DNA from: Desulfobacterales bacterium HSG16
GTDB lineage: Bacteria > Desulfobacterota > Desulfobacteria > Desulfobacterales > HSG16
Reading direction: 5' to 3'
NCBI GenBank assembly: GCA_030377965.1
Contig: JAUCGE010000007.1
Coordinates: forward strand, 1 to 64,000
DNA length: 64,000 bases
In this document: positions 44,507-60,800 of the stretch, piece after piece
How the letters are laid out: the number at the start of each line of letters is the position of its first letter
Position numbering within the stretch: position 1 is the first letter of the stretch
Made by a program: the position numbers and the translations under genes
The notes under the pieces: generated by a model
Databases searched by the model: none
Seen by the model: the letters and a program-made list of their open reading frames with translations, nothing else
What the model was told of the DNA's origin: nothing

Positions 44507-45652
44507 ATGACAGTTCAGGAATTGATCGAATCAGGAATACCAGAAAAATGGCTCTCCAGAGAGCTTTACCGCAGAGCTGCATTCCATTTTGAAAAATGCG
44601 GGGAACTGCACGAAGCTGCCGGATGCCGGGTAAAAGCGCATGAATTCAGTCATGCAGTAGAAATTTACCTGAAACTTGATGATCATGCCAGAGCCGCTCC
44701 ATTGTTATTATCCGAAAAACGATATCCAGAAGCCTTGAACTGCTTTCAGCGGTGGATGAATGAAATTTCCGAAAAAACTTCGGAAAATCAGGTTTCTGCC
44801 ATGCTTGGCATATCCGCATGTCTGAAGATGATGAAAATCGATTTGCAGGCCGCACGGGATATGTATTGTAAGGCAAGAAAGATTATCGAAAGAGAAGACG
44901 ATGATGATCATGGCCACAGCTCTTCTCTGGCTTCAGGCCGATGCTGGGAGGCTCTGGGAATCTACGGCAGGGCTTTGGAGCGGTACGATCTGATTCAGGC
45001 AGGATATGAAAAATCTCTGGCATGTTTTGGAGAAGAACATAATCATGAGCGCTTGAAAACCGCTGTAACGTATCTGGAGTTGATAAAAAAAAACCGGCTC
45101 CTTGCTGCCGATCTCGAAAATCGTATTGCTGAATGGAGTTTGCCGGAAGATGATGATATTGTGCCTGTGCCTCCGCTGGTTCAATTGAGAAGTACGACGC
45201 TTACGGTTTCAGATGATGAGTTCAGAAAAGTTTTTAAGTTGGGTAATAATCGTAAGCCACTGGATTATATACAGAATGAGTTTGAGGATCTTGGTGAAAT
45301 TATTCTGGATCATACAACCGGTATCATGTGGCAGCAATCAGGCTCGAAAGATTGGATAACATATGAATCTGCTGAAGCTTATGTAAAAAAATTGAACCAG
45401 GATCATTTTGCCGATTATGATGACTGGCGTCTGCCCACAGTTGATGAACTGGCATCTCTGCTTGAACCTGAGAAAAATTCAGAGAATGATCTTTACATTG
45501 ATCCGATTTTTGATTGTGCAAATGTATTTCCCTGGTACTGGACCTCAGATAAGCGAGTTGGTGGCGGTGCGTGGGGCGTTGACTTTAACCTCGGCGGTGT
45601 TAGCTGGAGCACTCTCCTCAACGCTGGTTACGTGCGAGTATGTCGCGCCTGA
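44507..45652 (+). CDS. DGR target protein 1: helical-repeat N-terminus with DUF1566/C-type-lectin-fold variable domain
   Basis: The protein has 381 residues. Residues 1-210 are helical and TPR-like (FHFEKCGELHEAAGCRVKAH, then LKLDDHARAAPLL). A linker containing LTVSDDEFRKVF leads to a DUF1566-type domain (about 255-381: EIILDHTTGIMWQQSG, DWRLPTVDELASLLEP), related to the C-type-lectin fold used by known DGR targets. The last 34 residues plus stop (348-381) are encoded by variable repeat VR1. Twelve template AAY codons give Gly, Asp, Asn, Leu, Gly, Ser, Ser, Thr, Leu, Asn, Ala and Gly here. AGG precedes the ATG by 6 nt. Its leader is shared with target 3, with which it is nearly identical along most of its length. 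Confidence 0.88.
   Translation: MTVQELIESGIPEKWLSRELYRRAAFHFEKCGELHEAAGCRVKAHEFSHAVEIYLKLDDHARAAPLLLSEKRYPEALNCFQRWMNEISEKTSENQVSAMLGISACLKMMKIDLQAARDMYCKARKIIEREDDDDHGHSSSLASGRCWEALGIYGRALERYDLIQAGYEKSLACFGEEHNHERLKTAVTYLELIKKNRLLAADLENRIAEWSLPEDDDIVPVPPLVQLRSTTLTVSDDEFRKVFKLGNNRKPLDYIQNEFEDLGEIILDHTTGIMWQQSGSKDWITYESAEAYVKKLNQDHFADYDDWRLPTVDELASLLEPEKNSENDLYIDPIFDCANVFPWYWTSDKRVGGGAWGVDFNLGGVSWSTLLNAGYVRVCRA
45548..45652 (+). repeat. DGR variable repeat VR1
   Basis: These 105 nt align with the template repeat at 48345-48449 without gaps. The first 27 nt (to GTGCGTGG) and the last 24 (from TACGTGCGAG) are identical to the template. In between, 16 substitutions occur, all at template adenines. 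It ends with the target gene's stop codon. Confidence 0.93.
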
Positions 45653-45699
45653 CAATGTGGATCATTTGGTCATTTGAATTATTTGATAATTATGGGGGT

Positions 45700-45719
45700 G
45701 CAGGGGGCGTGCCCCCTGC
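45700..45719 (+). promoter_or_regulatory. Hairpin downstream of VR1, likely DGR target-recognition element
   Basis: GCAGGGGG and CCCCCTGC form an 8-bp stem with a CGTG loop. It starts 47 nt after VR1. Known DGRs, for example that of Bordetella phage BPP-1, need a hairpin or cruciform just after the variable repeat for efficient retrohoming, also with an 8-bp stem and 4-nt loop. No T tract follows. Confidence 0.75.
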
Positions 45720-45785
45720 TAGCGACAAAAATGGATTCAGGGATATTTTTTATTTTTTTTGCCGAACATGGTATAGGACATCATT

Positions 45786-47708
45786 ATGACAACAGCACAA
45801 ATCAATAAACAATCTGAAACTCATCTGCGTACGCTCTCTTTGAGCCATGTCAAGCCCCCTTCTCCTTCGCGTCCGGCTGCATGGCTTCGAGGAATAGGAG
45901 CTTTAGGATATTGTGTACCCCTGTTTCTAATTCAGGATCTTGGCACACTCCTGACCATGCCCCGCCAGCGGCTTCGGATATCTCGTCCTGACCATCTGCC
46001 GGATGATATCGACACATCCGCCTATTCCGTGTTTCTGGATCGAATGGCCGGATATGCACTGCTGTGCCAGATAAGCGCATGGAATATATCCGACTCTGTG
46101 GCAGGTGTGATAATAGCCAAACTGTTGAACGATGTGAAATTTCCGGGGCTATACGCTATTCCGGGAGGAAACAATGGAGCGGATTTTGCCCGTCGGCTTG
46201 GTGTCAAAATGGATCGTGCTGACCCTGCCGGTATATGGAGGGAAACCTTGCCGGAAGATCGTCCGGTATTGTCAGAGCTTTTACCTGAAGAAGCCATGAC
46301 CGATATAGCGAAAAATCTGCGTAATCTGGATGAAGATGAACTTCGATTTCTCCACCGCTACGGGCCTCGTTTTGCCGGAGCGCCTGATCCAGAGGACATG
46401 CTTGACCTGTTCAGCCTGCTCAATCTTCCGCCGTCAGTGCGCCTTGCCATGTCCCAGGTCATGAGTCTGCTGCCCAGAATCAGCCAGACAACCCGTGCCG
46501 GAGGAACTCAGACCTACGCAATGGGCGGATATGAAGGCTTGACCCGCAAGGGCAGCCTCGACAGCATCATACCCACTGAACTGGCCTGCCCGGATGATAT
46601 TCTGTTTCACCGCCTGCTGAACAACGAGGCTCTTTACTATGGCAGAGAAGGCGAGCGGGAGAGGCAGAAAGCGCTTGCATATATTGTCACCCAGTCCGGT
46701 ATGGAAATGCTCGGAGATTTCAACGTCATGGCCCAGGCCCTTACTCTCGCACTTGCTCAGGCCATGCAGAGCCGGGGCTACGAAGTGTTGCAGAGTTTTG
46801 CAGGCAATCTCCTGACTCCGCCAGCGGGCATGAACAAACCAAAAGATGTGCATCGTATATTGTATTATCAGGACAAAGGATGGAGCCTGCCGGAAAAGAT
46901 TTTGAACAATGTTTCCGAACTTCTTCGCTCATGGAAAGAAGAATACAGAAGTGTACAGGTTTTCTGGGTGGTAAACGAGTTCTGGGATGCAGATGACTGG
47001 GATCTGCATCAAAAACTCTACAGAAATTTAAAAAAACAGGCCGGGCAGCAGATCTGGTTCATTCAATGCGGATACGGCAGATCAAAACTCAACGGAACCC
47101 CGCCTGTGGCAGCCCGGCAATTTCATCGATACCACATTGTACATACTGAATCCATGTGGAAAGATCGAAAACCTCCGCGTGTCGATTTCACTGTGGCACG
47201 AAAAAGAGCAGCAGCCATCGAAAAAAAGAAAGCTGATCCCCTTTTACGGAGCGAATTTTTGACTGTATCCGATGATGATGCAGCAGAGGTTTTCGGTTTG
47301 AAGCTGATCAGAAAAACAGAGAACTGGACTCAGTTGAAACCTGTCGAACATATGAAAAACGACTTTGAAGACAGGGGAGACATTATTTTTGACCGTGAAA
47401 CCGGCCTGACATGGCAGAAATCTGACTCGGGAAATGAAATGACATATGAAGAAGCAGAGGCTTATGTCAGCCAACTGAATCATGATCATTTTGAAGGCTG
47501 CAATGACTGGCATCTGCCCACAGTGGATGAACTGGTTTCCCTGATCGAGCCTGAACAAAATTCGGCGGGCCTTTACATTGATCCGATCTTTGATTGTTCA
47601 GAAGGGTGGTACTGGAACTGGACTTCCGATAAGCGAGTTGGTGGCGGTGCGTGGTACGTTGGCTTTAACCTCGGCAATGTTGGCTGGCACTATCTCAAGC
47701 ACCACTGA
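45786..47708 (+). CDS. DGR target protein 2: degenerate vWA-like N-terminus with DUF1566 domain, frameshifted in its variable repeat
   Basis: The reading frame has 640 residues. The N-terminal 470 differ from the other targets. The segment GGYEGLTRKGSLDSIIPTEL followed by NEALYYGREGERERQ resembles, from memory, vWA-region proteins of MoxR-vWA ternary conflict systems; the metal-binding Asp-x-Ser-x-Ser seems lost (MEMLGDFNVMAQALTLALAQ at that place). From FLTVSDDDAAEVFGL onward it carries the same linker and DUF1566 domain as targets 1 and 3. One extra G at about 47699 inside VR2 shifts the frame, so the protein ends YLKHH at TGA 47706-47708. Without it the frame would run to 47733 and end in VRVCRA like the others. 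Confidence 0.8.
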   Translation: MTTAQINKQSETHLRTLSLSHVKPPSPSRPAAWLRGIGALGYCVPLFLIQDLGTLLTMPRQRLRISRPDHLPDDIDTSAYSVFLDRMAGYALLCQISAWNISDSVAGVIIAKLLNDVKFPGLYAIPGGNNGADFARRLGVKMDRADPAGIWRETLPEDRPVLSELLPEEAMTDIAKNLRNLDEDELRFLHRYGPRFAGAPDPEDMLDLFSLLNLPPSVRLAMSQVMSLLPRISQTTRAGGTQTYAMGGYEGLTRKGSLDSIIPTELACPDDILFHRLLNNEALYYGREGERERQKALAYIVTQSGMEMLGDFNVMAQALTLALAQAMQSRGYEVLQSFAGNLLTPPAGMNKPKDVHRILYYQDKGWSLPEKILNNVSELLRSWKEEYRSVQVFWVVNEFWDADDWDLHQKLYRNLKKQAGQQIWFIQCGYGRSKLNGTPPVAARQFHRYHIVHTESMWKDRKPPRVDFTVARKRAAAIEKKKADPLLRSEFLTVSDDDAAEVFGLKLIRKTENWTQLKPVEHMKNDFEDRGDIIFDRETGLTWQKSDSGNEMTYEEAEAYVSQLNHDHFEGCNDWHLPTVDELVSLIEPEQNSAGLYIDPIFDCSEGWYWNWTSDKRVGGGAWYVGFNLGNVGWHYLKHH

Positions 47709-47733
47709 TTTCGTGCGAGTATGTCGCGCCTGA
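47628..47733 (+). repeat. DGR variable repeat VR2, with a single-base insertion
   Basis: The repeat has 106 nt against 105 in the template. Thirteen substitutions all lie at template adenines, including one in the TAC codon that stays unchanged in VR1 and VR3. The one extra base is a G within the template's first AAC after CTC. With that G removed, the 3' codons read Asn-Thr-Thr-Asp-Phe, all reachable by adenine changes. Confidence 0.92.
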
Positions 47734-47780
47734 CAATGTGGGTTATTTGGTCATTTGAATTATTTGACAATTATGGGGGT

Positions 47781-47800
47781 GCAGGGGGCGTGCCCCCTGC
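47781..47800 (+). promoter_or_regulatory. Hairpin downstream of VR2
   Basis: It is identical in sequence to the hairpins after VR1 and VR3 and again starts 47 nt after the variable repeat. The intervening segment is also nearly identical (CAATGTGG, CATTTGAATTATTTGA). Confidence 0.75.
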
Positions 47801-47832
47801 TAGCGACAAAAAAAATTTAAGGAGTTATTTCC

Positions 47833-48183
47833 ATGGCAAGATATGAGCATCTTCCCATATATAAAAAAGCATTTGATCTGAATCTGTATTTCGAAAAAAT
47901 TGTTCGAGGCTTCAGCCGTTACAATAAATACACTCTTGGAACAGAACTGAGAGAATATTCCAGACTTGCCGTAAAACTGATTGTCGAGGCCAATAACAAC
48001 AGGGATAAGATGGACAAACTGCTTGAGTTGAGGGCGCTTCTTGAACAGTTGAAGCTCACGATCCGGCTATGCAAGGAATTGAAAGCATTTAACAATTTTG
48101 ATTCATTTCAGGTTGCAATCAATCTTGTTATTGATATAAGTAAACAGAACGAGGGGTGGATAAAGAGTTTTTCCCGTAAATAA
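47833..48183 (+). CDS. avd: DGR accessory variability determinant (Avd), four-helix-bundle protein
   Basis: The protein has 116 residues, the usual size of Avd and its 23S-rRNA-intervening-sequence relatives. It begins YEHLPIYKKAFDLNLYFEKI, matches the four-helix-bundle pattern and is basic. In studied DGRs Avd forms a pentamer that binds the reverse transcriptase and the template RNA and is needed for mutagenic cDNA synthesis. AAGGAG lies about 8 nt before the ATG at 47833. It sits directly upstream of the template repeat and the reverse transcriptase, the classic avd-TR-RT order. Confidence 0.9.
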   Translation: MARYEHLPIYKKAFDLNLYFEKIVRGFSRYNKYTLGTELREYSRLAVKLIVEANNNRDKMDKLLELRALLEQLKLTIRLCKELKAFNNFDSFQVAINLVIDISKQNEGWIKSFSRK

Positions 48184-48344
48184 GGACATGGCCAGAATTC
48201 GGACTTGCTTGAAATCAATCCGGAGTGTGCCAACATAATCATTGTGCATCCTTTCCGCCTTACCGGGCATTATGAATCAGGCTGTCATACCATGACATTG
48301 TGGATTGGCGGCCGGTGATCCCTTTTTCTGGGAATAAGTGAAGG

Positions 48345-48449
48345 GATAAGCGAGTTGGTGGCGGTGCGTGGAACGTTAACTTTAACAACGGCAATGTTAA
48401 CTGGAACAATCTCAACAACAATAATTACGTGCGAGTATGTCGCGCCTGA
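48345..48449 (+). repeat. DGR template repeat (TR)
   Basis: This 105-nt repeat matches the three variable repeats except at adenines. Its middle is a run of Asn codons: 12 AAY codons in 19, flanked by invariant ends. It is intergenic between avd and the reverse transcriptase gene and overlaps the earliest possible start codon of the latter. The template diverges from the variable repeats right after TGA (T against C) and lacks the downstream hairpin, as expected for the IMH*/IMH distinction that makes information flow one way. Confidence 0.94.
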
Positions 48450-48457
48450 TAATGATA

Positions 48458-49990
48458 ATGTCTCAATTCACTTTTGAAAATATTTACAGGGCTTATATCG
48501 ATTGCAGGAAAAACAAACGGAATAAGTCCGATGCATTACAATTCGAAATCGACGCAGAAGAGAACATTCACAACCTGCACCTCGAATTGACGGGAAAAAC
48601 TTACCACCCCTTACGTTCTGACTGCTTTGTTGCCCGAAAACCCAAGCTGAGAGAAATATTCGCAGCAGATTTCAAAGATCGAATCTCCCATCATCTGGTT
48701 GTGAGTTATCTTGAACCCATATGGGAACCTGCGTTTATCTTTGACAGTTATGCCTCCAGACGGAAAAAAGGCATACATCTTGCCATTGAAAAATTAAAAA
48801 AATTCACACGAAAAATCACAAAAAACGGATCTCAACAGGCATTTTTCATGCAGCTCGATATAAAAAATTTTTTCATGTCGATCGATAAAGATATCCTGTA
48901 TGATATCGTCAAAACCCGCTGCCCTGACCAGGAAATCCTGTGGCTGGCAAAAACGATAATTTTCCATGATCCAACCAAAAATTACCAGCTCAAATCATCC
49001 AGAAAGCTTTTGAACAGGATACCTGTACAGAAATCCCTTTTTGGAAATGAAAATGAAAAGGGGCTGCCTATCGGTAATCTGACCAGTCAATTCATGGCAA
49101 ATGTTTATTTAAACTGTCTTGATCAGATGGTAAAGCATGAACTGAAATGCAGTTTTTACATGCGCTATGTGGATGACTTCATACTGCTGAATACTGATGA
49201 AAAACAACTTCTATCCTGGAAAAAGATAATTGAAAAGTTCCTTGATAAAAAATTGAAGCTGGAGCTGAACCATTCAAGAACAAAAATCCGCCCTATAACA
49301 AACGGAATAGATTTTTTAGGGTATGTCGTTCGTCCAGGGTACATTCTTTGCCGAAACAGGGTGGTCAACAACCTGCAAAAAAGACTGATATCTTTTTCAA
49401 AAGAGTTGATAAGCAGCGATGGGCGTATCCAGAGAATCAATTATAATTATGATATCCTGGAAACACTGTTTGCATGCCTGAATTCTTATCTGGCCCATTT
49501 TAAACATGCCAATACACACAATCTGACCAATAAAATATTTGAACGGCATTCATGGCTGGGTCACTATTTTTTTATGCATAAATTTAAGCTTAAAAGAATC
49601 TATTGCCCGCCTTCGGGATTCAATGCGCTGCGGTTTCAGTATCGCTATTTTCAGAAACAATTTCAGCAATTTCTGATATTCTTTCAGGTGGGCTGCTTTT
49701 ATGAATTTTATGAAATACAGGCTGCCAGAGCGATACAATACTTGAAACTCAAAAGGATAGAGAGTAAACACGGTTTCAGGCTCAGATGCGGTATTGGCAT
49801 CAAAGGATTGGATCGTTTTGTTGACATGGCTTTAAAAATGAATTTGCCCGTTGCTGTGATAAAACAGACCGGACATTATTTAAATCGCCTTGCTGAACGC
49901 AGAATATCTGATCAGTATATACCTTCACAGCAAACAACAGACTCGGATTCCGGGTTTTCCGGTTGCAGTTCGATTCTGGTAATCCGCTGA
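48458..49990 (+). CDS. DGR reverse transcriptase with a C-terminal MutS domain I-like extension
   Basis: Numbered from ATG 48437 (inside the template repeat) it has 517 residues; I prefer ATG 48458, just after the repeat, with 510. RT motifs: LREIFAADFKDRISHH (71-86), FFMQLDIKNFFMS (catalytic Asp near 141), GLPIGNLTSQFMANVYLN (209-226), which is typical of DGR enzymes, and FYMRYVDDFILL (YVDD 244-247). Most DGR reverse transcriptases end near 300-400 residues. Here about 120 more residues follow, containing FFQVGCFYEFYEIQAARA and MNLPVAVIKQTGHYLNRLAE, which closely match MutS mismatch-recognition domain I, including its Phe-x-Glu motif (F421, E423). No start has a clear ribosome site. Confidence 0.92.
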   Translation: MSQFTFENIYRAYIDCRKNKRNKSDALQFEIDAEENIHNLHLELTGKTYHPLRSDCFVARKPKLREIFAADFKDRISHHLVVSYLEPIWEPAFIFDSYASRRKKGIHLAIEKLKKFTRKITKNGSQQAFFMQLDIKNFFMSIDKDILYDIVKTRCPDQEILWLAKTIIFHDPTKNYQLKSSRKLLNRIPVQKSLFGNENEKGLPIGNLTSQFMANVYLNCLDQMVKHELKCSFYMRYVDDFILLNTDEKQLLSWKKIIEKFLDKKLKLELNHSRTKIRPITNGIDFLGYVVRPGYILCRNRVVNNLQKRLISFSKELISSDGRIQRINYNYDILETLFACLNSYLAHFKHANTHNLTNKIFERHSWLGHYFFMHKFKLKRIYCPPSGFNALRFQYRYFQKQFQQFLIFFQVGCFYEFYEIQAARAIQYLKLKRIESKHGFRLRCGIGIKGLDRFVDMALKMNLPVAVIKQTGHYLNRLAERRISDQYIPSQQTTDSDSGFSGCSSILVIR

Positions 49991-50029
49991 TCATCGAAAC
50001 AGAGTTTATCAGGCACTTTCATTTTATGC

Positions 50030-50143
50030 CTGTAAAATAAGGAACACAGGAAAAAAATGGCAGTTCAGGATCTGTTTTTTGAACCGCAGATAATCATGAT
50101 GATATTGATGCCCATGATGTTTCCAGGTAATCACCAATTGTAA
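50030..50143 (+). pseudogene. Remnant of a DGR target-gene start
   Basis: About 40 nt of leader and start codon (ATAAGGAACACAGG, then ATG at 50057 and CAGTTCAGGA) copy the start of target 1 at 44507. The similarity stops abruptly at 50070, where a long inverted-repeat element begins; the frame runs only 28 codons, to 50143. This looks like a third helical-type target gene whose body was lost or displaced. Confidence 0.6.
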
Positions 50144-50215
50144 ATTGACCACATTCAACATAAAATACCGCCTATCATGCTCATCATATCCATCATGATT
50201 ATCTGCGGTTCAAAA
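50077..50215. mobile_element. MITE-like element with 25-bp terminal inverted repeats
   Basis: Positions 50077-50101 and 50191-50215 are perfect 25-bp inverted repeats (ends TTTTGAACCGCAG). They enclose 89 nt without a reading frame, containing further ATGATG-type repetition. The size (139 bp), perfect terminal repeats and lack of coding capacity fit a miniature inverted-repeat transposable element, though a large RNA hairpin is also possible. I see no clear target-site duplication. Confidence 0.6.
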
Positions 50216-50305
50216 CCAAAACTTGTCGTTGAAGACAAATCATGGTAATCCTTCAATCCTTAAATCAAGGTTCAAACTCGATTTCAGACAACAACAGGAA
50301 AAAAA

Positions 50306-51460
50306 ATGACAGTTCAGGAATTGATCGAATCAGGCATACCAGGCAAATGGCTCTCCAGAGAGCTTTACCGCAGAGCTGCATTTCATTTTGAAAAATGCGG
50401 GGAGCTGCACGAAGCTGCCGAATGCCGGGTCAAAGCGCATGAATTCAATCATGCTGTTGAAATTTACCTGAAACTTGATGATCATGCCAGAGCTGCTCCA
50501 TTGTTATTATCCGAAAAACGATATCCGGAAGCCTTGAACTGCTTTCAGCGGTGGATGGATGAAATTTCCGAAGAGACACAGGAAAAGCAGGTTTCTGCCA
50601 TGCTTGGCATATCCGCATGTCTGAAAATGATGAAAATCGATTTGCAGGCCGCACGGGATATGTATTGTAAGGCAAGAAAGATTATCGAAAGAGAAGATAA
50701 AGATGATGATCATGGCCACAGCTCTTCTCTGGCTTCTGGTCGATGCTGGGAAGCTCTGGGAATCTACGGCAGGGCTTTGGACAGGTACGATTTGGTTCAG
50801 GCAGGATATGAAAAATCTCTGGCATGTTTTGGAGAAGAACATAATCAGGAACGCTTGAAAACCGCTGTAACTTATCTGGAGTTGATACAGAAAAACCGGC
50901 TCCTTGCTGCTGATCTCGAAAACCGTATTGCTGAATGGAGTCTGCCGGAAGATGATGATATTGTGCCTGAGCCTCCGCTTGTTCCATTGAGAAGTGAAGC
51001 AATTACGGTTTCAGATGATGAATCTTCAGAAGTTTTTAATATTGCCCCAAAATATCCACGGAGACCGCTTGAATATGTCAAAAACGAATTTGAGGTTCTT
51101 GGTGAAATTGTTCTGGATCATACAACCGGCATTATGTGGCAGAAATCAGACTCGAAAAACGAAATGCCATATGAAGAAGCCAATGCTTATGTAAAAAAAC
51201 TGAATCAGGATCATTTTGCAGAATATGAAGACTGGCGTCTGCCCACAGTGGATGAACTGGCATCTTTGCTTGAACCTGAGAAAAATTCAGAGAACAATCT
51301 TTACATAGATCCGATTTTTGATTGTGCAGAGGGGTGGTACTGGAACTGGACTTCAGATAAGCGAGTTGGTGGCGGTGCGTGGGGCGTTCACTTTAACGAC
51401 GGCAGTGTTGGCTGGAGCAGTCTCAACTACAGTAGTTACGTGCGAGTATGTCGCGCCTGA
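50306..51460 (+). CDS. DGR target protein 3: helical-repeat N-terminus with DUF1566 variable domain
   Basis: The protein has 384 residues and is nearly identical to target 1 through residue 230 or so. It diverges in the linker (EAITVSDDESSEVFNIAP) and is again very similar in the DUF1566 part (EIVLDHTTGIMWQKSDSKNE, DWRLPTVDELASLLEP, GWYWNWTSDKRVGG). The last 34 residues (351-384) are encoded by VR3: the 12 template AAY codons became Gly, His, Asn, Asp, Ser, Gly, Ser, Ser, Asn, Tyr, Ser and Ser. Target 1 and this gene are therefore a recent duplication on both sides of the DGR core, now carrying different variable sequences. Confidence 0.88.
   Translation: MTVQELIESGIPGKWLSRELYRRAAFHFEKCGELHEAAECRVKAHEFNHAVEIYLKLDDHARAAPLLLSEKRYPEALNCFQRWMDEISEETQEKQVSAMLGISACLKMMKIDLQAARDMYCKARKIIEREDKDDDHGHSSSLASGRCWEALGIYGRALDRYDLVQAGYEKSLACFGEEHNQERLKTAVTYLELIQKNRLLAADLENRIAEWSLPEDDDIVPEPPLVPLRSEAITVSDDESSEVFNIAPKYPRRPLEYVKNEFEVLGEIVLDHTTGIMWQKSDSKNEMPYEEANAYVKKLNQDHFAEYEDWRLPTVDELASLLEPEKNSENNLYIDPIFDCAEGWYWNWTSDKRVGGGAWGVHFNDGSVGWSSLNYSSYVRVCRA
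51356..51460 (+). repeat. DGR variable repeat VR3
   Basis: These 105 nt align with the template without gaps and show 12 substitutions, all at template adenines. Ends are identical to VR1 and VR2. It ends with the target's stop codon. Confidence 0.93.
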
Positions 51461-51507
51461 CAATGTGGATCATTTGATCATTTGAATTATTTGACAATTA
51501 TGGGGGT

Positions 51508-51527
51508 GCAGGGGGCGTGCCCCCTGC
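51508..51527 (+). promoter_or_regulatory. Hairpin downstream of VR3
   Basis: This is the third identical copy of the 8-bp stem with CGTG loop, again starting 47 nt after its variable repeat. Confidence 0.75.
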
Positions 51528-51612: not shown

Positions 51613-53502
51613 ATGGGACAATGTAAAACGACTCTTGATACAGGAAAGCAGTGCAGCAACCGGACAGTACCCGGAAAAGATTATTGCAGTAAGCATAAAC
51701 CGAGAATAAAATTCCATCGGATAACAGACAAAACTCCTGCCGCCGCCCCGTCAAAAAGCGGAGGTGGTGAAAAAAAGCCTCCGGACTATAAGGCTGAACC
51801 CAAAGATGGCAATGCTAAACCGGCATTTCCGGGTTTGCAGACAGACAAACGCAACATCCTTATAGCGCCCGTAGGGATCATCTGGTTAAGACAGACAGAT
51901 AAAAAGGATGAGACAGGAAATATTTCCGGCCGCCTGATAAGAGTGATCTCCTGTCTGAACAGAGAAACAAGCCTTGCTGGCCTTGTCACGGTCTTTTCAG
52001 CAGAGAAAAATGGTATCATCATCCGCATAAATCCAAATAATCCTTCGACAGATGATCTTTCCCGGTTTTATGACACTGCACTTGCAGCAGCGGAACTCAG
52101 TGACGGCCTTTTTTATATCGGAAAGGAGCGGATCTTTATCCGATATCGGGATGGGAACGCACCCGGAGGTTATGATGCAGACAATGTGGATATTCCCGAT
52201 AGCAAAGATATATTCCTTATAGATATCGACGGAACTCATGTAATACAGGAAAAAAGCCTGGCTGAAAAACCATTGGATAAACTTCTTCTGAGCTTTTCTC
52301 CCCGGCCCGAACGGGGAACCGAAATTCCGGAAACAATTTACGCACTCTGCCGGCCCGCCCTTTACTCCATGCTCGCAGAATATTTCCGAAACCATGACTT
52401 CCTCTATGATGTGGCCCGTTTCTGTACACCTGAAAAATCGACCCTCGTTCTGTTCAAAATTTTCCCCCGGCATGACGCTCCAATCGGATCAATCATACCC
52501 GGATTTATGCTGACCTGGCTTGCAGGACTGCCTTGGTGTGCCGTACTTCAGGAGTCGGAAATCGAAGAAGGCCGGACAATGCTTGTCGAATACGGCTATC
52601 GATATCCCTGCCGTCGGATCGCTGATGTATTTCCCCAAGAGAGCCTTCTTATATTTACTTCCAACCCTGATTTTTCCAACATGTGCCTTATTCCATGCCC
52701 TACTTTCTTTGATGGTGACGAACTTATAAAATCGACTGATTCATGCAATGCTGCCGAATACGAGATAACACCGGTCAATGACAGCTCCAGAGTTTCCCTG
52801 AAAGTTCCCGTCCGCCTGATACCCGCTTCCGGCCCGTCTCCATTTCCGTCAGCGCTTATATTGGACAACCGGGAAACATCCTGGCTCTGCCGCCTCATAC
52901 GCTGCCTGCCGGAACTTCCTTTTCACAGATTTTTTATGTGTCAGGGCAAAGAATCCTCTGTACTCATGAGCCGTGAAAACCACATAGAGGGCATCCCCTT
53001 TGGTATCCCCTTATGCAGTGTAAAAGACACAAATCTCTTCGTTCCTGTCCAGTCAAGGCTTACCCCCGAACTTCCCTGGGCAGTTCTTTCCGAAGTCATG
53101 GGGATTTCAAAAAACACATATTCGTTCATGACAAAAGATTTTCGACTCGACGTGCCGGAAAAGAATTTTTCCCCCCTTTCACGGGCGCTGGTGGCAGAAT
53201 CAAAAGAACTGCGGTCAGATTTGAAGATCGAGCCTGCCTCCGAGCTTCCGAATTTGAAATGGACAGGCCCGACGCAGAAAAAAGGCAAATCAGGAAACCG
53301 GAAAGGACTTTTTCAGAAATTATCAGAAAAAGCCACAGGCGCTTCAAACAAAGAAAATCCTGCAAACAGGGAGGCAGCCTTTCAGCAGGAGGCGGAAAAA
53401 TGCAGGGGAAAAGGAGATTTTCTTGGCGCTGGAGTCTGTTTTGCCATGATAGACGACAGCGCAAATGCTGCCAGATGCTTTAAAAAAGCTGCCGAGAGAT
53501 GA
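51613..53502 (+). CDS. Large protein with N-terminal Cys/His zinc finger; conflict-locus component of unknown fold
   Basis: The protein has 629 residues. The start holds CKTTLDTGKQC, then DYCSKH: a compact C-x9-C...CxxH finger like those in DUF5763-type proteins. A Lys/Pro-rich linker follows. I do not recognise the central 450 residues, which look like alternating beta strands and helices. The last 60 residues (CRGKGDFLGAGVCFAMIDDS, then ANAARCFKKAAER) are a helical repeat resembling the N-terminus of DGR targets 1 and 3. It lies 150 bp after target 3 and 50 bp before the KAP NTPase gene. I infer a structural or adaptor component; it may correspond to one of the middle-domain proteins of ternary conflict systems, which I cannot verify. 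Confidence 0.6.
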   Translation: MGQCKTTLDTGKQCSNRTVPGKDYCSKHKPRIKFHRITDKTPAAAPSKSGGGEKKPPDYKAEPKDGNAKPAFPGLQTDKRNILIAPVGIIWLRQTDKKDETGNISGRLIRVISCLNRETSLAGLVTVFSAEKNGIIIRINPNNPSTDDLSRFYDTALAAAELSDGLFYIGKERIFIRYRDGNAPGGYDADNVDIPDSKDIFLIDIDGTHVIQEKSLAEKPLDKLLLSFSPRPERGTEIPETIYALCRPALYSMLAEYFRNHDFLYDVARFCTPEKSTLVLFKIFPRHDAPIGSIIPGFMLTWLAGLPWCAVLQESEIEEGRTMLVEYGYRYPCRRIADVFPQESLLIFTSNPDFSNMCLIPCPTFFDGDELIKSTDSCNAAEYEITPVNDSSRVSLKVPVRLIPASGPSPFPSALILDNRETSWLCRLIRCLPELPFHRFFMCQGKESSVLMSRENHIEGIPFGIPLCSVKDTNLFVPVQSRLTPELPWAVLSEVMGISKNTYSFMTKDFRLDVPEKNFSPLSRALVAESKELRSDLKIEPASELPNLKWTGPTQKKGKSGNRKGLFQKLSEKATGASNKENPANREAAFQQEAEKCRGKGDFLGAGVCFAMIDDSANAARCFKKAAER

Positions 53503-53554
53503 ATCAATGATTATAGCCTAAAATCAGGAACAAGACATGGACAGGAGAAAAATT

Positions 53555-55546
53555 ATGACAGAGATCAGGCCAGTTACCATCATAAGTGACACACCGGAAA
53601 TCGGCACAGATTTCTTCGGTTTTGACGCATATGCCAGAACGATTTCAGGCATAATCATAAACAAAAAAAATAAAACGCCCCTGGTGATCGGCATTTACGG
53701 TGTCTGGGGTTCTGGTAAGACAACCCTCATGCAGACCGTGAAAGGCATACTGGATCAGGGAAAATTCAAAGACGAATCTGACTCCATACGCAGATGCAAA
53801 ACTGTCTGGTTTCAAGCCTGGAAATACGCCAAAGAAGAAGAAATTCTAGCAGGACTCATAGAGCAGATATTTAAAACCATGAAAGAAGATGGTTTTATCA
53901 CTGAATTCAAGGCTCGAATAGAAGAACTTGTAAAAAAAATCAATGTATCCAAACTCTCTGAAAAACTCCTCAATTTTGTGGGCGGGGGTGAAATAGCCCA
54001 GGTATTTACCGATCCTGAATACAAGAAAAAGCTCGGTTTCTATGACTCTTTTCAGGAAATTTTTGAACGGCTCATATGGAATTATCTCAGTTGGCGGCCT
54101 AAAATCAGTGTACTGGAGGAGTGGGATGATACCAAAGGAGCGCTTGTGGTTTTTATAGACGATCTTGACAGATGCCCCAGGGACAAAATTCCGATGGTAC
54201 TTGAAACCATAAAGCTTTTTATGGACAAGCCAGGATGCATATTTGTGATCGGCGCTGCTCAGGACATTATTTTAAAGGCTTTGAAAAAGACCTATGAAGA
54301 AGACGCTGTTCGATTTATGGACAAAATCGTCCAGGTCTATTTCAATCTGCCCAGGATTCCGGTCGAACATTTTGAAGAATATCTCGACAAAAAAATCCCG
54401 GAAATGAAAGGACAATTGCTTCCTCACTTACCTCTGATCATCCCGGCCATACAGAATAATCCGAGGCAGTTGAAGCATTTTTTCAACAACCTGAACCTCA
54501 TGGAAGGAATCCGTAGTAACAGGAACGTCAATATTAAATTCGAACATCTTCTATACTGGAGCATTATAGAATGTGTCAGCCCTGAATTGAAAAAAGAAAT
54601 CTGCGATAATCCTGCAATGTTTCAAACTCTTAGAGACAACCTTGAAAAACTTGCCGAAGAAAACGAATCAGGCACTGTGCAGGATATCCCGGAGGAGCTT
54701 CTCACACCGGAAGTCTTTCCTCAATCTCTTCACGTATATCTTCAAAACAGAGGGCTTGTGAATATCCTCATCCATCTTGATACATCCAAAGAGCAAATTC
54801 TCCAACTGATCACATTGACGGGAATGGTAAAAAGCCTCGAAACTGTCGAAAAAAAGCATGAGATAAACCCGGCTGTAAATACGGAGAGCATGGTCAAGGT
54901 TTTATCCGGTGAGTTTTCTCCTGGTGAGGATAAAACAATAAAAACGATTGATGAGCATTATCATATCGATATCTATCCGGTCACAAACGAACAATACAAG
55001 GCATTCATTGAAGCAGGAGGATACGAAAACAGACAACTATGGTCAGAAGAAGGCTTGCAATGGAAAGAAAACAACAATATTAAGCTTCCGGCATTCTGGG
55101 ATTATGATGAATTGAGTTCTCCGGGCTGCCCGATTGTCGGCATCTGCTATCACGAAGCCGAGGCTTATGCAAACTGGAAAGGAAAACAGCTTCCGACAGA
55201 AATCCAGTGGGAACGGGCGGCAGGAGGCGCACAAGGCAGGATATATCCCTGGGGTAATACCTTTGAATCGGAAAAATGCAATACCAGAGAATCGGGAATC
55301 GGAAAAACCAGCAGGGTGACAAGGTATCCTAATGGTGTCAGCCCGGCAGGATGTTACGATATGTCAGGTAACGTCTGGGAATGGACAACAACACAGGATG
55401 GCAATCTCAGAATATTGAAGGGCGGTTCCTGGTCATCGCCTGCAAACAACACAAAAAACGATGCAAAAACGGCAAAGCCCGATGATATGAGGCAGGACAC
55501 AATTGGATTTCGATGTATTTCCATAGAGCGGCAGTACCCACAGTGA
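53555..55546 (+). CDS. KAP-family P-loop NTPase fused to an FGE-sulfatase-like (C-type-lectin fold) domain
   Basis: The protein has 663 residues from ATG 53555, which has AGGAG 7 nt upstream; ATG 53537 is less likely. The KAP NTPase (about 20-330) shows Walker A GVWGSGKTTLMQTV, FQAWKYAKEEEILAGL, Walker B VFIDDLDRCPRDKIP and the family's VRFMDKIVQVYFNLP. The C-terminal 210 residues form an FGE/SUMF1-like domain (YPVTNEQYKAFIEAGGY, QLPTEIQWERAA, MSGNVWEW, LKGGSWSS, GFRC). That is the fold used by many DGR targets, but its 3' end has no similarity to the template repeat. KAP proteins are membrane-associated or signalling NTPases, often in conflict loci. No clear membrane insert is seen. Confidence 0.85.
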   Translation: MTEIRPVTIISDTPEIGTDFFGFDAYARTISGIIINKKNKTPLVIGIYGVWGSGKTTLMQTVKGILDQGKFKDESDSIRRCKTVWFQAWKYAKEEEILAGLIEQIFKTMKEDGFITEFKARIEELVKKINVSKLSEKLLNFVGGGEIAQVFTDPEYKKKLGFYDSFQEIFERLIWNYLSWRPKISVLEEWDDTKGALVVFIDDLDRCPRDKIPMVLETIKLFMDKPGCIFVIGAAQDIILKALKKTYEEDAVRFMDKIVQVYFNLPRIPVEHFEEYLDKKIPEMKGQLLPHLPLIIPAIQNNPRQLKHFFNNLNLMEGIRSNRNVNIKFEHLLYWSIIECVSPELKKEICDNPAMFQTLRDNLEKLAEENESGTVQDIPEELLTPEVFPQSLHVYLQNRGLVNILIHLDTSKEQILQLITLTGMVKSLETVEKKHEINPAVNTESMVKVLSGEFSPGEDKTIKTIDEHYHIDIYPVTNEQYKAFIEAGGYENRQLWSEEGLQWKENNNIKLPAFWDYDELSSPGCPIVGICYHEAEAYANWKGKQLPTEIQWERAAGGAQGRIYPWGNTFESEKCNTRESGIGKTSRVTRYPNGVSPAGCYDMSGNVWEWTTTQDGNLRILKGGSWSSPANNTKNDAKTAKPDDMRQDTIGFRCISIERQYPQ

Positions 55547-55707: not shown

Positions 55708-56439
55708 ATGACTCTCAATTCTTCTCATAAAGATAAAACTCATAAAGATAAAAACTCTCTGAAAACAAGACTGTCCAGAGAAATTCAAACAGGAATTGAT
55801 TCTGCAAAGGATTCCGAAAACGCGGATCTGCCAGATCTGGCCATTCGAACCACAACCATGTATTCTAAGTGGTACACACGCCACTGCCCCACATGCAAAC
55901 TCAAATTCAGAGAACAGGATCAGGTAAGATTATGCCCCCAATGCTCTCAAGCCTATCATGATGATGATCAGTACAATCTCAGATGCTGGGAGCGTCATTT
56001 TGCAAATGAACGCAATTGCAAAAACGATAGCCATGATCCCATAAATGAAGTTGACAGAAAGGGCTGTTATTACAAATGGAACGGAAAATTCCCGGATGAT
56101 GATGACAGCAGACGGCAGCCACTTTCCGATTTTTCCCGTGTAGAGGAAATTGGTCCTCAGTTTCTTTCCGGCCTTGAAAATATCCGGAAACCATTTGGTG
56201 AAGAAAAAATCGAGATAGTAAAAGAATATGATGAAAAAGTCGGTCTGAAATGCCCGTGGTGTCGTTTCCTGATCAGACCGGGAGACCATGTGGTAGCTTG
56301 CCCCTGCGGTAAATGCAATACATGGTTTCACATGGACATATACCGGCATCTGACATGCTGGAACGAATGGAACGGGTTCCGGGGGAATAATTTTTGCCCT
56401 GAAACCTCTGCTAAAATCGAGAAGGCCCCTGAAAAATGA
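55708..56439 (+). CDS. Protein with two RING/treble-clef-like zinc domains
   Basis: The protein has 243 residues. Zinc module 1 has C60, C63, C76, C79, H84, C93 and H97 (HCPTCKLKF, LCPQCSQAYHDDD, LRCWERHF). Module 2 has C182, C185, C198, C200, C203, H208, H214 and C217 (CPWCRFLI, CPCGKCNTWFH, LTCWNEW). Both end in a Trp-containing motif (LxCWxxx) and look like internal duplicates of a prokaryotic RING-finger type. Its stop overlaps the start of the E1-like gene (ATGA), so the two should be made together. With an E1 next door and a ubiquitin-like gene further on, an E3-like ligase role is a fair inference. I see no E2-like gene in the window. Confidence 0.75.
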   Translation: MTLNSSHKDKTHKDKNSLKTRLSREIQTGIDSAKDSENADLPDLAIRTTTMYSKWYTRHCPTCKLKFREQDQVRLCPQCSQAYHDDDQYNLRCWERHFANERNCKNDSHDPINEVDRKGCYYKWNGKFPDDDDSRRQPLSDFSRVEEIGPQFLSGLENIRKPFGEEKIEIVKEYDEKVGLKCPWCRFLIRPGDHVVACPCGKCNTWFHMDIYRHLTCWNEWNGFRGNNFCPETSAKIEKAPEK

Positions 56440-57584
56440 AACAGACTGTTGTTGACCGATATGACCGACAGCGACGTATCGACAGATGGAGCCAGAATGC
56501 TCTTACTGATGCAAAGGTGATCATTTTAGGTGCTGGCGCGCTTGGCAACGAAATTGTAAAAAATCTTGCCATGATCGGCATCGGCCATATCCTGGTGGCC
56601 GATTTCGATATTGTGGAAATTACAAACCTGAGCAGAACAGTTCTCTTCCAGAATTCCGATATAGGAAGATCAAAGGCTGAAACAGCAGCAGATATGGCAG
56701 GAAAGCTCAACCCGGATATCGATATCAGATATATTCACGGCAATCTCTTTTTTGACATTGGCCTTGGATTTTACCGCCACTGCGATCTGGTGATAAGCGG
56801 TCTTGACAACATTGCCGCCCGATCCCATGCAGGAATCAAAAGCGCTCTGGCAGGAGTTCCTTTTTTAGATGGCGGCATGTGGGCTATGGGCGGTGAAGTC
56901 AGGTGGTTTTTTCCCGGCAAAGGCCCCTGCTTTGAATGCACCCTGACCAGGGAAGATCGCAGACATGCATTTGAACGCAGGTCATGCACCGGGTTTCGAC
57001 CGGGTGAAGAACAACATCGAATAGAGCCTTCGACAATGAGTACAACCGCAGTTATCGCAGGAATACTCACCCAGGAGGTTGTGCGCTTTCTCTGCGGATG
57101 GGAAACGCCTGAAAACAGCGCCATTGTATATAATGGCTTGACACAGTCCATGCATAAAACAGACTTTTCCCGTGATCCGGACTGTCCTTATCATAAAAAA
57201 TATCAGGATGTGATCGAACTCGATTCAGGAACCAACAGAATAAGGGCTTATGATCTTATTTGCAAAGCGGAAAAGAATTTGGGAAAACCTTGTGTTCTGG
57301 AACTGGGAAGGGATTTTCTGGCCGAATTTAAATGCACGGGGTGCGACCATTGCGAACCGGTCGAAGAACTCCTGGGCCGCATAGATGAGAGCCGCTCAAT
57401 CTGCCCCATATGCGGCAAACCCATGAAACCCGAGATTCTGTCCGGCTTGAAACAAGATGATATTTATGCAGATCGAACTTTGAAAAATCTTGGTGTTCCG
57501 TCAGGAGAAGTTCTGGCAGTTCGGTCAGAACTGGGAATGATATTTTACGAACTGACGGGGGATATTGCTGAGTTCTGGCATTGA
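56436..57584 (+). CDS. E1/ThiF-like ubiquitin-activating-type enzyme with extra zinc ribbon
   Basis: The protein has 382 residues. The Rossmann core has GAGALGNEI (32-40), VADFDIVEITNLSR (54-67) with the ATP-contacting Asp, Asn and Arg, and SGLDNIAAR (121-129). C165 and C168 (CFEC) with C250 may bind structural zinc; C184 (ERRSCTGF) is a candidate active-site Cys. A C-terminal extension adds a zinc ribbon (CTGCDHC, 300-306, and CPIC, 323-326) and a short beta-rich tail. Enzymes of this fold adenylate the C-terminus of ubiquitin-like proteins. The 4-bp overlap with the RING gene and the ubiquitin-like gene 6 kb downstream support a ubiquitin-like pathway. Confidence 0.88.
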   Translation: MKQTVVDRYDRQRRIDRWSQNALTDAKVIILGAGALGNEIVKNLAMIGIGHILVADFDIVEITNLSRTVLFQNSDIGRSKAETAADMAGKLNPDIDIRYIHGNLFFDIGLGFYRHCDLVISGLDNIAARSHAGIKSALAGVPFLDGGMWAMGGEVRWFFPGKGPCFECTLTREDRRHAFERRSCTGFRPGEEQHRIEPSTMSTTAVIAGILTQEVVRFLCGWETPENSAIVYNGLTQSMHKTDFSRDPDCPYHKKYQDVIELDSGTNRIRAYDLICKAEKNLGKPCVLELGRDFLAEFKCTGCDHCEPVEELLGRIDESRSICPICGKPMKPEILSGLKQDDIYADRTLKNLGVPSGEVLAVRSELGMIFYELTGDIAEFWH

Positions 57585-57847
57585 TCGTTAAAAGACACAA
57601 GAATAAGTTTTTCAGGGAATACGTAGGATACTTTCGTGGTAAAGGCGCGTAAAAGAGAGGATGGTATTTATGCACATAATCTTTGACACAATGGTTAATG
57701 CAGGCAAAAAAACAAAACGAAGGAAATTTTCCAGACACATACAATTGAGTAATATGGCTGTAGTTTTAGATTATTACAGAATGATTACAAAATTGAATGG
57801 GTATAAAAAGCTGTAAAAAACTGTCAGATTTTTTAAGGAGATTCAAT

Positions 57848-60800
57848 ATGGAAGAAAAGAAGAATTTTTGTTTTGTCATAATGCCAACAGGCAAAGGCTT
57901 TGATGAAATATATAAATATGCAGTCAAAGAAGCCGTCCGAAAGTACGATATGGAGTGCATCCTTGTTCACAACATTCCCGGGCAGGGCAATATTATAGCG
58001 GAAATTATAGAGCGTATCTACAATGCAAAACTTGTCATCGCTGATTTGACGAATAACACTTCTGAAATTTTATATGAACTGGGACTAACCCATGGTTTGC
58101 TGAACAATGTCATTATGATCACTCAAAATTATGAAGACTTGCCGTTTGATTTGAAAAATTACAGGGTGATTCAATATAGCACAGATGTTGGATGTGACAG
58201 GGAATTAAAAGAAAAAATCAATTCAAGCATAGAAAAGCTTTCTGAATGGATTGATAAATCCAACCCGGTAAAAACCTATCTTCCAAAATCAAAGATTCCG
58301 ATAGCAGCGGAAAAATATAGTGAAATAAAGGCCAAACTGGATCAGGCGGAAGACAACTTCAAAAGAACAGAAAACAAACTGGCACAAAAGGCAAAAGAAC
58401 TGGATGACACTAAAAATGAGATGGCAAAGACTCAGAAAAAATTGTCCAGTCTTTTGCAAGCTGAAGAGAAACTGAAAAAGACCGGCATTGAGCTTTCAAA
58501 TACAATTCAGGAATTTAACGATGTGAAGCAGAAGTTTGATGCTGCAAAGCGTACAATAGATGAACGATCAGAGGCTTTACAAGATAAAAACGGCGAAATA
58601 AAACATTATGAGCAGAAAAATGAAAGATATATACAGCAAGCAAAAGAGATTCAAGAATTGCAGGATAAAAATGATCAATTGCAGGAAATCAGGAATTTTT
58701 CCGAAAAATTTTTCCGAAAAATTTTAAGAGATAACGTCAAAAACCTTACAATAGATGAAACAAAACTATTATACGAAAAAAATACTGATAGGGATTCCAA
58801 ATTAGATGATAACATTGTTATCAAAACCATTCCCATCTTCGATACAGAGAATAAATACTCATCTGAAATAGATTGCGATGCTTTAGCTGAAGGTATCTAC
58901 AAAATGGTATCCAAGAAGTTTTATGATCCAATGCAAGCCGATAATATTAAACAAGATCCGAATCTTTGCTTTGTTTTTATACCTAATAGCCGGAAAAACC
59001 GGTTGGTAGTTTTTCAAAAATGCATATTGCCAACTTTAGAGCAGAACGAATTAAAAATTGAGTTATCACCAGAAATTGATGACGATGAAGCTTATCATGA
59101 AAAGATATTCAATGGAATCAAACGGGCTCAATTAGTAATTGCCGATGTTACCGATCAAAGTCCCGGTGGTTTTTATTACATTGCAGGAATTTGTAATGCA
59201 ATAGGCAGAAAATTATTGATTGTATCTCAAAATGCAGTCGATGCGTCTTTTACAATTTGTATGAAACATATTATGACAATTATTTATAAAGATTCATTTT
59301 TTGGTTTCCAGGAACTTAGCTATGAATTGGAAAATACGATCCAGTCTGCGATGGGGTCTTTGCCTCTCGCAGCTAAATTGAGAACCTGGTATAACGGTAG
59401 AAAAAACTATAAAGTCGATGGTAATATCAAAAGGAATGGAATTTACGCTGATTTGACAGTTAAAATACCAGATGAAAACAAACCTTCTGAGCGACGAGGT
59501 TTGGTGAGAGCTTTTGCAGATATAATACGGCCATTAAATGTAAGAGAGTTAAGTGATGAAGTAAAAAACAACCAACATCTCGATAAAGGAATAATAGTAA
59601 GTTCCAAAGGGGTACATGTCGATGCTTATGATGAAGCATGCAATTACCAGAATATTGATGTTTACACCTTTCATGAACTGATTGACAGTGTTGCTGATTG
59701 GAGTAAATATTTTGAATATCTAAAGAAGCGGTTTGACGAAATTGGGGTAGCAGAAGACTATGTCGAATTATCTGCTACCATCCAAAATTATAGTCAAAAA
59801 GGGAACGATCCAAGAACTTTTGATAATATTGACAAATATATAGATGAATGGATTATTTCTACTCAAAAAAGACAGACTTTTGTACTGGGCGAATTTGGAA
59901 CAGGAAAAACGTGGTTTACATTACATTATACTTCAAAAATTCTTCAACGTTATGAAGAAGCGGTAGAAAAAGGGAATCCAAGACCTCGAATTCCTATTCT
60001 CATTCATCTCAGTGATTACCAAATGGGCATCCAACGAAAAAAGGAAATTTCAAGTTTGTTTTTGGATTTTCGCAAACAAAAAGGTATTGACATACTCGAA
60101 AGCGATTGGACACAACTTGTAAAAATGGGCAGATTACTTTTTATCCTTGATGGATTTGATGAAATGAATTTCAAAGTTAATACTGAAATTATAAAAAGTA
60201 ATTTTGAAAGGCTTATCAAGCCAATGGAAATGAATCCGGCTTCCAAGGCTCTGATAACGTGCCGGAAGGAACATTTTCTTGATATTGATTATGAAGACAA
60301 ATTACTTACAGGTGATATAGTGGAAAAATCTCAAAAATTTAACATTTTATACCTCGAAAGAATGAATGATCAGCAATTATTCCGAGTTTTAGATTCTCAG
60401 ATAAATAAAGAAAACATTAAAAATGGGGGAAGCATTAAAAAAGAAATTATTTCCGATCCAAAGCTGAAAGAGTTGGCAAGACGTCCTTTGATAGCAAAAC
60501 TCATTATAATTGCAATAAACCAAGTCGAATCAAATGAACTTATTGATTTGGCACATATTTATTTACATGCAATACAAAATAAACTAAAAAGAGATTTTGA
60601 TGGTGTAAGTGTAGATGATAAAAAACGCTCTTGCACGCCGCCTGAAAAAAGAGAATTGTTTTTACGGGAAATGGCATGGGAAATGTTCAAAAACGGACAA
60701 AAAACATTTCTGCATTCAGATACGAAAATATCTGAACTCATCAATATACACCTTAACGAGAACCTCGCTGAAGGCGACAAAATAGATATTTTGTTGCATG

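Follow-up and report, generated by a model that had tools for sequence, protein, structure and literature searches.

Published links between DGRs and ternary conflict systems concern the VMAP class along with related MoxR loci, and FGS tips are known from VMAP and iSTAND systems. Multicellular bacteria have DGR-diversified ternary and STAND systems (Dore et al. 2024, PMC10907252; Kaur et al. 2020, PMC7159879) in which the DGR lies beside MoxR ternary components, a C-type-lectin tip is carried on the vWA component, and several targets are served per DGR. The locus described here shares the first and last of these features and likely the vWA tip, but those systems are of VMAP or STAND type, whereas this one appears to be of FtsH class with a Ubl set, and a TPR subunit is diversified besides the likely vWA subunit. 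The DGR of Bordetella phage BPP-1 (PMC3240598) has the Avd-TR-RT order, adenine mutagenesis and the GC-rich hairpin (8-bp stem, 4-nt loop) 3' of the variable repeat (VR) in common with it. The hairpin spacing is 47 nt here and 4-34 in phage DGRs, the loop is CGTG here and GRNA there, and the present DGR has four cellular targets and a reverse transcriptase (RT) fused to MutS_I. In the literature searched, which covered few subscription papers, FtsH and a DGR were found together only in Kaur et al. (PMC7159879), and the FtsH-class, two-subunit arrangement is new as far as this search shows. We consider it probable that the DGR diversifies two kinds of subunit, TPR and vWA, of an FtsH-class ternary conflict system, with the variable tips as putative invader sensors.

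The window analysed is the whole stretch of 64,000 nucleotides from positions 1-64,000 of contig JAUCGE010000007.1 of Desulfobacterales bacterium HSG16 (GCA_030377965.1), a draft assembly of 4.8 Mb in 408 contigs. The initial annotation had placed avd, template repeat (TR) and RT in the classic order, which is borne out by Pfam matches and repeat alignment.

47833..48183, + strand: avd accessory gene (bAvd 50.8 bits, Pfam cut-off 40)
48345..48449, + strand: TR, with 32 adenines and 12 AAY codons; the VR-type hairpin is missing 3' of it
48437..49990, + strand: RT fused to MutS domain I (RVT_1 70 bits, MutS_I 43.4 bits, both above the Pfam cut-off)

With RT, TR, avd and adenine-specific VRs all present, the DGR is real. 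The true start of the RT is likely at 48461. Both RT and avd are intact, and the RT motifs YVDD and FYE are conserved, the latter being found also in a relative (G035). MutS domain I is located C-terminal of RVT_1, and two accessories, bAvd and MutS_I, are thus present above their cut-offs. A MutS-like accessory, MSL (PF01624), is already known for DGRs (cited in PMC10053308). The common feature is a MutS domain I tied to a DGR, so the RT-linked MutS_I is not new in kind, though here it sits fused on the RT C-terminus. As a guess, MutS_I might handle the mismatched cDNA/VR duplex. Relatives on viral contigs possess avd-RT, in many cases together with Lcl_C, but none gave a match to MutS_I; the VR pattern was not found in viral contigs, and genome contigs scanned with the RT alone gave no matches. 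Two bAvd matches occur in the assembly, the avd of the window and that of a second DGR, located on contig C26, and there are also RTs besides those of the two avd loci.

Three VRs had been counted in the initial annotation, which also suggested aligning the TR to the whole genome. This search confirmed the three coordinates in the window and found a fourth VR on the same contig, 4.5 kb past the window end.

45548..45652, + strand: VR1, 105 nt, 16/16 differences from TR at adenines
47628..47733, + strand: VR2, 106 nt, 13/13 substitutions at adenines, with an extra G at 47699 and a premature TGA at 47706-47708
51356..51460, + strand: VR3, 105 nt, 12/12 differences from TR at adenines
Contig position 68508-68612, outside the window: VR4, 8/8 changes from TR at adenines

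All 49 of the 49 substitutions over the four VRs are thus at TR adenines, which are replaced by G (28), T (11) and C (10). The hypergeometric probability of such a bias by chance is 2e-10 for VR1, 2e-8 for VR2 and 1e-7 for VR3, with a range of 2e-10 to 4e-5 over the four. The arithmetic of 15^12 = 1.3e14 combinations from the 12 AAY codons proved correct; since the AAC codon at TR offset 39 is the same in all four VRs, the realised diversity may fall under this ceiling.

The 73 non-adenine sites of the VRs are identical in all six VR pairs, whereas the 250 nt upstream show just 69-85% identity between pairs, and drift at the flank rate would have given 11-23 non-adenine differences per pair. 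From this comparison of sequences, the identical sites are the footprint of recent template-driven replacement; present-day activity is a separate matter. It is quite unlikely that the DGR is an inactive relic, which diversified its targets once and is now not working or not selected. Such a relic would agree with the frameshift in target 2 (T2) and with the loss of the palm in the RT of the sister DGR on contig C26, but the window RT and avd retain their full frames and motifs, and zero drift at the non-adenine sites stands against a difference of 15-31% in the flanks. The 77 nt 3' of the VRs display 95-99% identity, falling to ~50% beyond, which delimits a recipient cassette of ~182 bp. These 77 nt are absent from the TR, so their conservation would be explained by constraint, gene conversion or recent spread of the cassette.

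The VRs lie at the 3' ends of genes encoding a C-terminal Lcl_C domain. Three targets, each ending in a VR, had been described before; the positions in the window hold, but the contig encodes four targets, and T2 is frameshifted as assembled.

44507..45652, + strand: T1, TPR subunit of the FtsH ternary system, C-terminal Lcl_C with VR1 (Lcl_C 79.3 bits, cut-off 34.9; TPR_12 sub-threshold)
45786..47708, + strand: T2, likely vWA subunit without beta-propeller, Lcl_C with VR2 (Lcl_C 70 bits; 61% identity to target 4; frame broken within VR2)
50306..51460, + strand: T3, TPR subunit, Lcl_C with VR3 (Lcl_C 82.6 bits; synteny)

Target 4, outside the window, is a likely vWA subunit with a clear WD40 beta-propeller and the Lcl_C/VR tail. 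T1 and T3 are indeed near-duplicates (84-94% DNA identity by segment), and the N-terminus of T2 is unlike theirs, both as first described. The N-terminal part of T1 matches stand-alone TPR genes (205-233 aa) of related operons, and T3 adjoins fvmX7, a position as in relatives. The TPR and vWA parts of the targets are under purifying selection, with dN/dS of ~0.16. An AlphaFold model of T3 (pLDDT 39.7) was too poor for use. Between RT and T3, a dispersed inverted-repeat element (50072-50226) has 48 partial matches in the genome, and a fragment like a target start is found beside it at 50041-50070.

The insertion in VR2 is a single nucleotide at 47699 within an AAC, which brings VR2 to 106 nt and, by a frameshift, puts a stop in frame at 47706-47708, and T2 as assembled lacks the Lcl_C end YVRVCRA common to the other targets. 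An indel made during retrohoming is the preferred explanation, and the null allele so formed could be overwritten by later retrohoming. An assembly or sequencing error, with all four targets intact, is doubtful. A draft genome of 408 contigs with several near-identical repeats would be prone to it, but the extra base falls in a template adenine run, where slippage of DGR RTs is discussed (PMC12875486), and the remaining 13 changes of VR2 are in perfect register.

A hairpin was found behind each VR.

45700..45719, + strand: post-VR1 hairpin (8-bp stem, 4-nt loop CGTG)
47781..47800, + strand: post-VR2 hairpin
51508..51527, + strand: post-VR3 hairpin

The GC hairpin, GCAGGGGG-CGTG-CCCCCTGC, lies 47 nt 3' of the VR inside the conserved 77 nt. 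A 34-mer spanning it has four copies in 4.8 Mb, one per VR, even at up to 3 mismatches, and exactly six sites in the assembly fit a relaxed consensus, at the four VRs of the window contig and the two VRs of the contig C26 DGR. All six are behind VRs in a single orientation, and no TR of the 4.8-Mb assembly is followed by one. The element is thus 3' of the VR and missing at the TR, as expected of a DGR, with a longer spacing and another loop than in phage DGRs. Retrohoming of BPP-1 depends on such a hairpin (Guo et al. 2011, PMC3240598). Because TR and VR are equivalent up to and including the stop codon, a downstream element is the evident mark of recipient against template, and we infer by analogy with BPP-1 and from the exact genome-wide distribution that the hairpin marks recipients and spares the template. 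Its place directly after the stop codons would also suit a transcription terminator, or it could be a dispersed palindrome. Both are highly unlikely: its restriction to six VRs of two DGRs in one orientation argues against either, as do flanks that are conserved while the letters of stem and loop differ between the two loci. The terminator was rejected, since a T-run is missing 3' of the hairpin (CTAGCGACAAA) and the distribution is confined to VRs.

Downstream of the DGR, the genes are ordered fvmX7, KAP-FGE, RING, E1, NACHT-associated WD40, Ubl-E2, probable JAB, target 4, a 385-aa conserved protein, FtsH, MoxR and fvmX2.

51613..53502, + strand: fvmX7, FtsH ternary system protein (PF20005 45.1 bits, cut-off 24)
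55708..56439, + strand: prokaryotic RING protein, E3-like (PF14446 30.4 bits, cut-off 29.1)
56436..57584, + strand: E1-like ThiF protein of the Ubl-conjugation set (PF00899 174 bits)

The FtsH ternary core is represented by AAA, bpMoxR, fvmX2 and fvmX7 together with synteny, and no VMAP-type protein was found among the scanned locus proteins, which have FtsH-class fvmX families instead. In the Ubl set, E1, RING and E2 score above cut-off and Ubl is sub-threshold; the JAB candidate has an HxH...SxxD motif by eye, without a Pfam hit. The initial annotation was right to place a multi-target DGR within a conflict-type locus; absent from it were the MutS_I domain of the RT, the hairpin as a feature peculiar to VRs, and the point that the targets themselves are, by sequence, the predicted subunits of the neighbouring ternary system. 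Adjoining the DGR, a KAP NTPase that ends in an FGE-sulfatase domain (53537-55546) has no TR match and is thus not a target of the window TR. A large protein (57797-62428) with the NACHT-associated domain NA-iREase1, pentapeptide and WD40 repeats may act in the locus as effector or sensor.

A survey for fvmX2 recovered FtsH ternary operons from nine further genomes in the phylum. Where the contig allows, the operon order is FtsH, MoxR, fvmX2, WD40-vWA, TPR and fvmX7; the vWA gene is present in 9/9 operons and the TPR gene in 8/9, the contig ending first in the remaining one. T1 and T3 match this TPR gene, and T2 and target 4 match the vWA gene. All four targets bear the Lcl_C/VR tail, and Lcl_C was found on neither the vWA nor the TPR gene of the nine relatives, whose genomes are fragmented; in this fragmented sample, the nine loci and eleven named loci, partly the same set, yielded neither avd nor RT nor Lcl_C. 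The names include Candidatus Tharpella, and one weaker match comes from Myxococcales. In a genome of the same order (G560), FtsH, MoxR and fvmX2 display 71-73% identity. A target homologue is absent from that contig, which ends within FtsH, and the assembly has no vWA match. G560 also has 19 Lcl_C matches, and avd or RT was not matched near the eight Lcl_C regions examined. In gene content, the locus agrees with the complex variant of the FtsH system described by Kaur et al. (2020, PMC7159879), with which it has FtsH, bpMoxR, a likely beta-propeller-vWA, fvmX, E1, RING and Ubl-E2 in common; in contrast to it, two subunits are duplicated here with DGR-targeted Lcl_C tails, which are missing in the examined relatives.

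The domain of T2 and target 4 has no direct match in Pfam, nor did the ivWA profile, described as 'vWA domain found in the FtsH ternary systems', match directly when run on the genome. Five homologues give sub-threshold ivWA matches (best E 5.6e-4). The T2 domain was modelled at low confidence (pLDDT 44.9), and this model returned almost only vWA-type folds from the PDB; a sequence search of solved structures with T2 found no credible relatives. Taken with the WD40-vWA architecture described for FtsH ternary systems (Kaur et al. 2020, PMC7159879), the sub-threshold homologue hits and the low-confidence fold suggest that the domain is likely a vWA.

In the proposed mechanism, TR RNA would be copied by an Avd/RT-MutS_I complex into cDNA mutated at adenines, as the substitution pattern suggests, and the cDNA would overwrite the VRs at the 3' ends of the four target genes, with the hairpin 47 nt 3' of the VR marking the recipient and the hairpin-free TR being spared. 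TR RNA, adenine mutagenesis with Avd and VR replacement are standard DGR steps, established in BPP-1 and presumed here. The VR-bearing Lcl_C (C-type-lectin-like) domain would be placed on both the TPR subunit (T1, T3) and the vWA subunit (T2, target 4), and a single template feeding two subunits would allow each to be sampled independently. By analogy, the variable tips may sense invaders, most likely phage products, and binding could be relayed through the vWA/TPR subunits to MoxR/FtsH and then to Ubl conjugation and the effector. The proposed sensor function builds on what Dore et al. and Kaur et al. had put forward. An immune role has been shown for no DGR target of such kind and Dore et al. 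(PMC10907252) call their own proposal untested, both of which leave room for tips that bind non-invader ligands, in surface or kin recognition, at a ternary locus not used in defence. This is unlikely, as the targets are homologous to core subunits of a predicted conflict system and lie beside a Ubl set and a NACHT protein. With invader sensing as the preferred reading, the microbe appears able to create new sensors for a predicted FtsH/ubiquitin-type immune complex. DGR tips on two subunits of FtsH/ubiquitin class, together with DGR-free relatives, suggest a plug-in gained more than once, and these relatives offer a natural comparison with and without the tip.

The second DGR of the genome (contig C26, 5529-10797) has two caspase-Lcl_C targets, avd, TR and RT. 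Its avd has 57% identity to that of the window, and its RT keeps the N-terminus and MutS_I but has lost most of the palm with the catalytic motif. Over the first 110 positions, all differences between the two VRs and their own TR fall on adenines, and each VR has a hairpin of the window-VR class. We tentatively suggest, from sequence, that one RT-MutS_I might serve two DGRs in trans, which is possible rather than likely: the intact window RT, via the shared recipient hairpin, would use its own TR and the contig C26 TR, the latter diversifying the caspase-Lcl_C proteins. One enzyme would in that case diversify the sensor subunits together with the predicted executioners. Recipient marking and service in trans lend themselves to a direct test, given the six hairpin copies and a second RT without its palm. 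On contig C12 (3971-6538), another TR/VR set lies near an RT and has its two VRs in FGE-type targets; it is probably one more DGR and has no match to bAvd.
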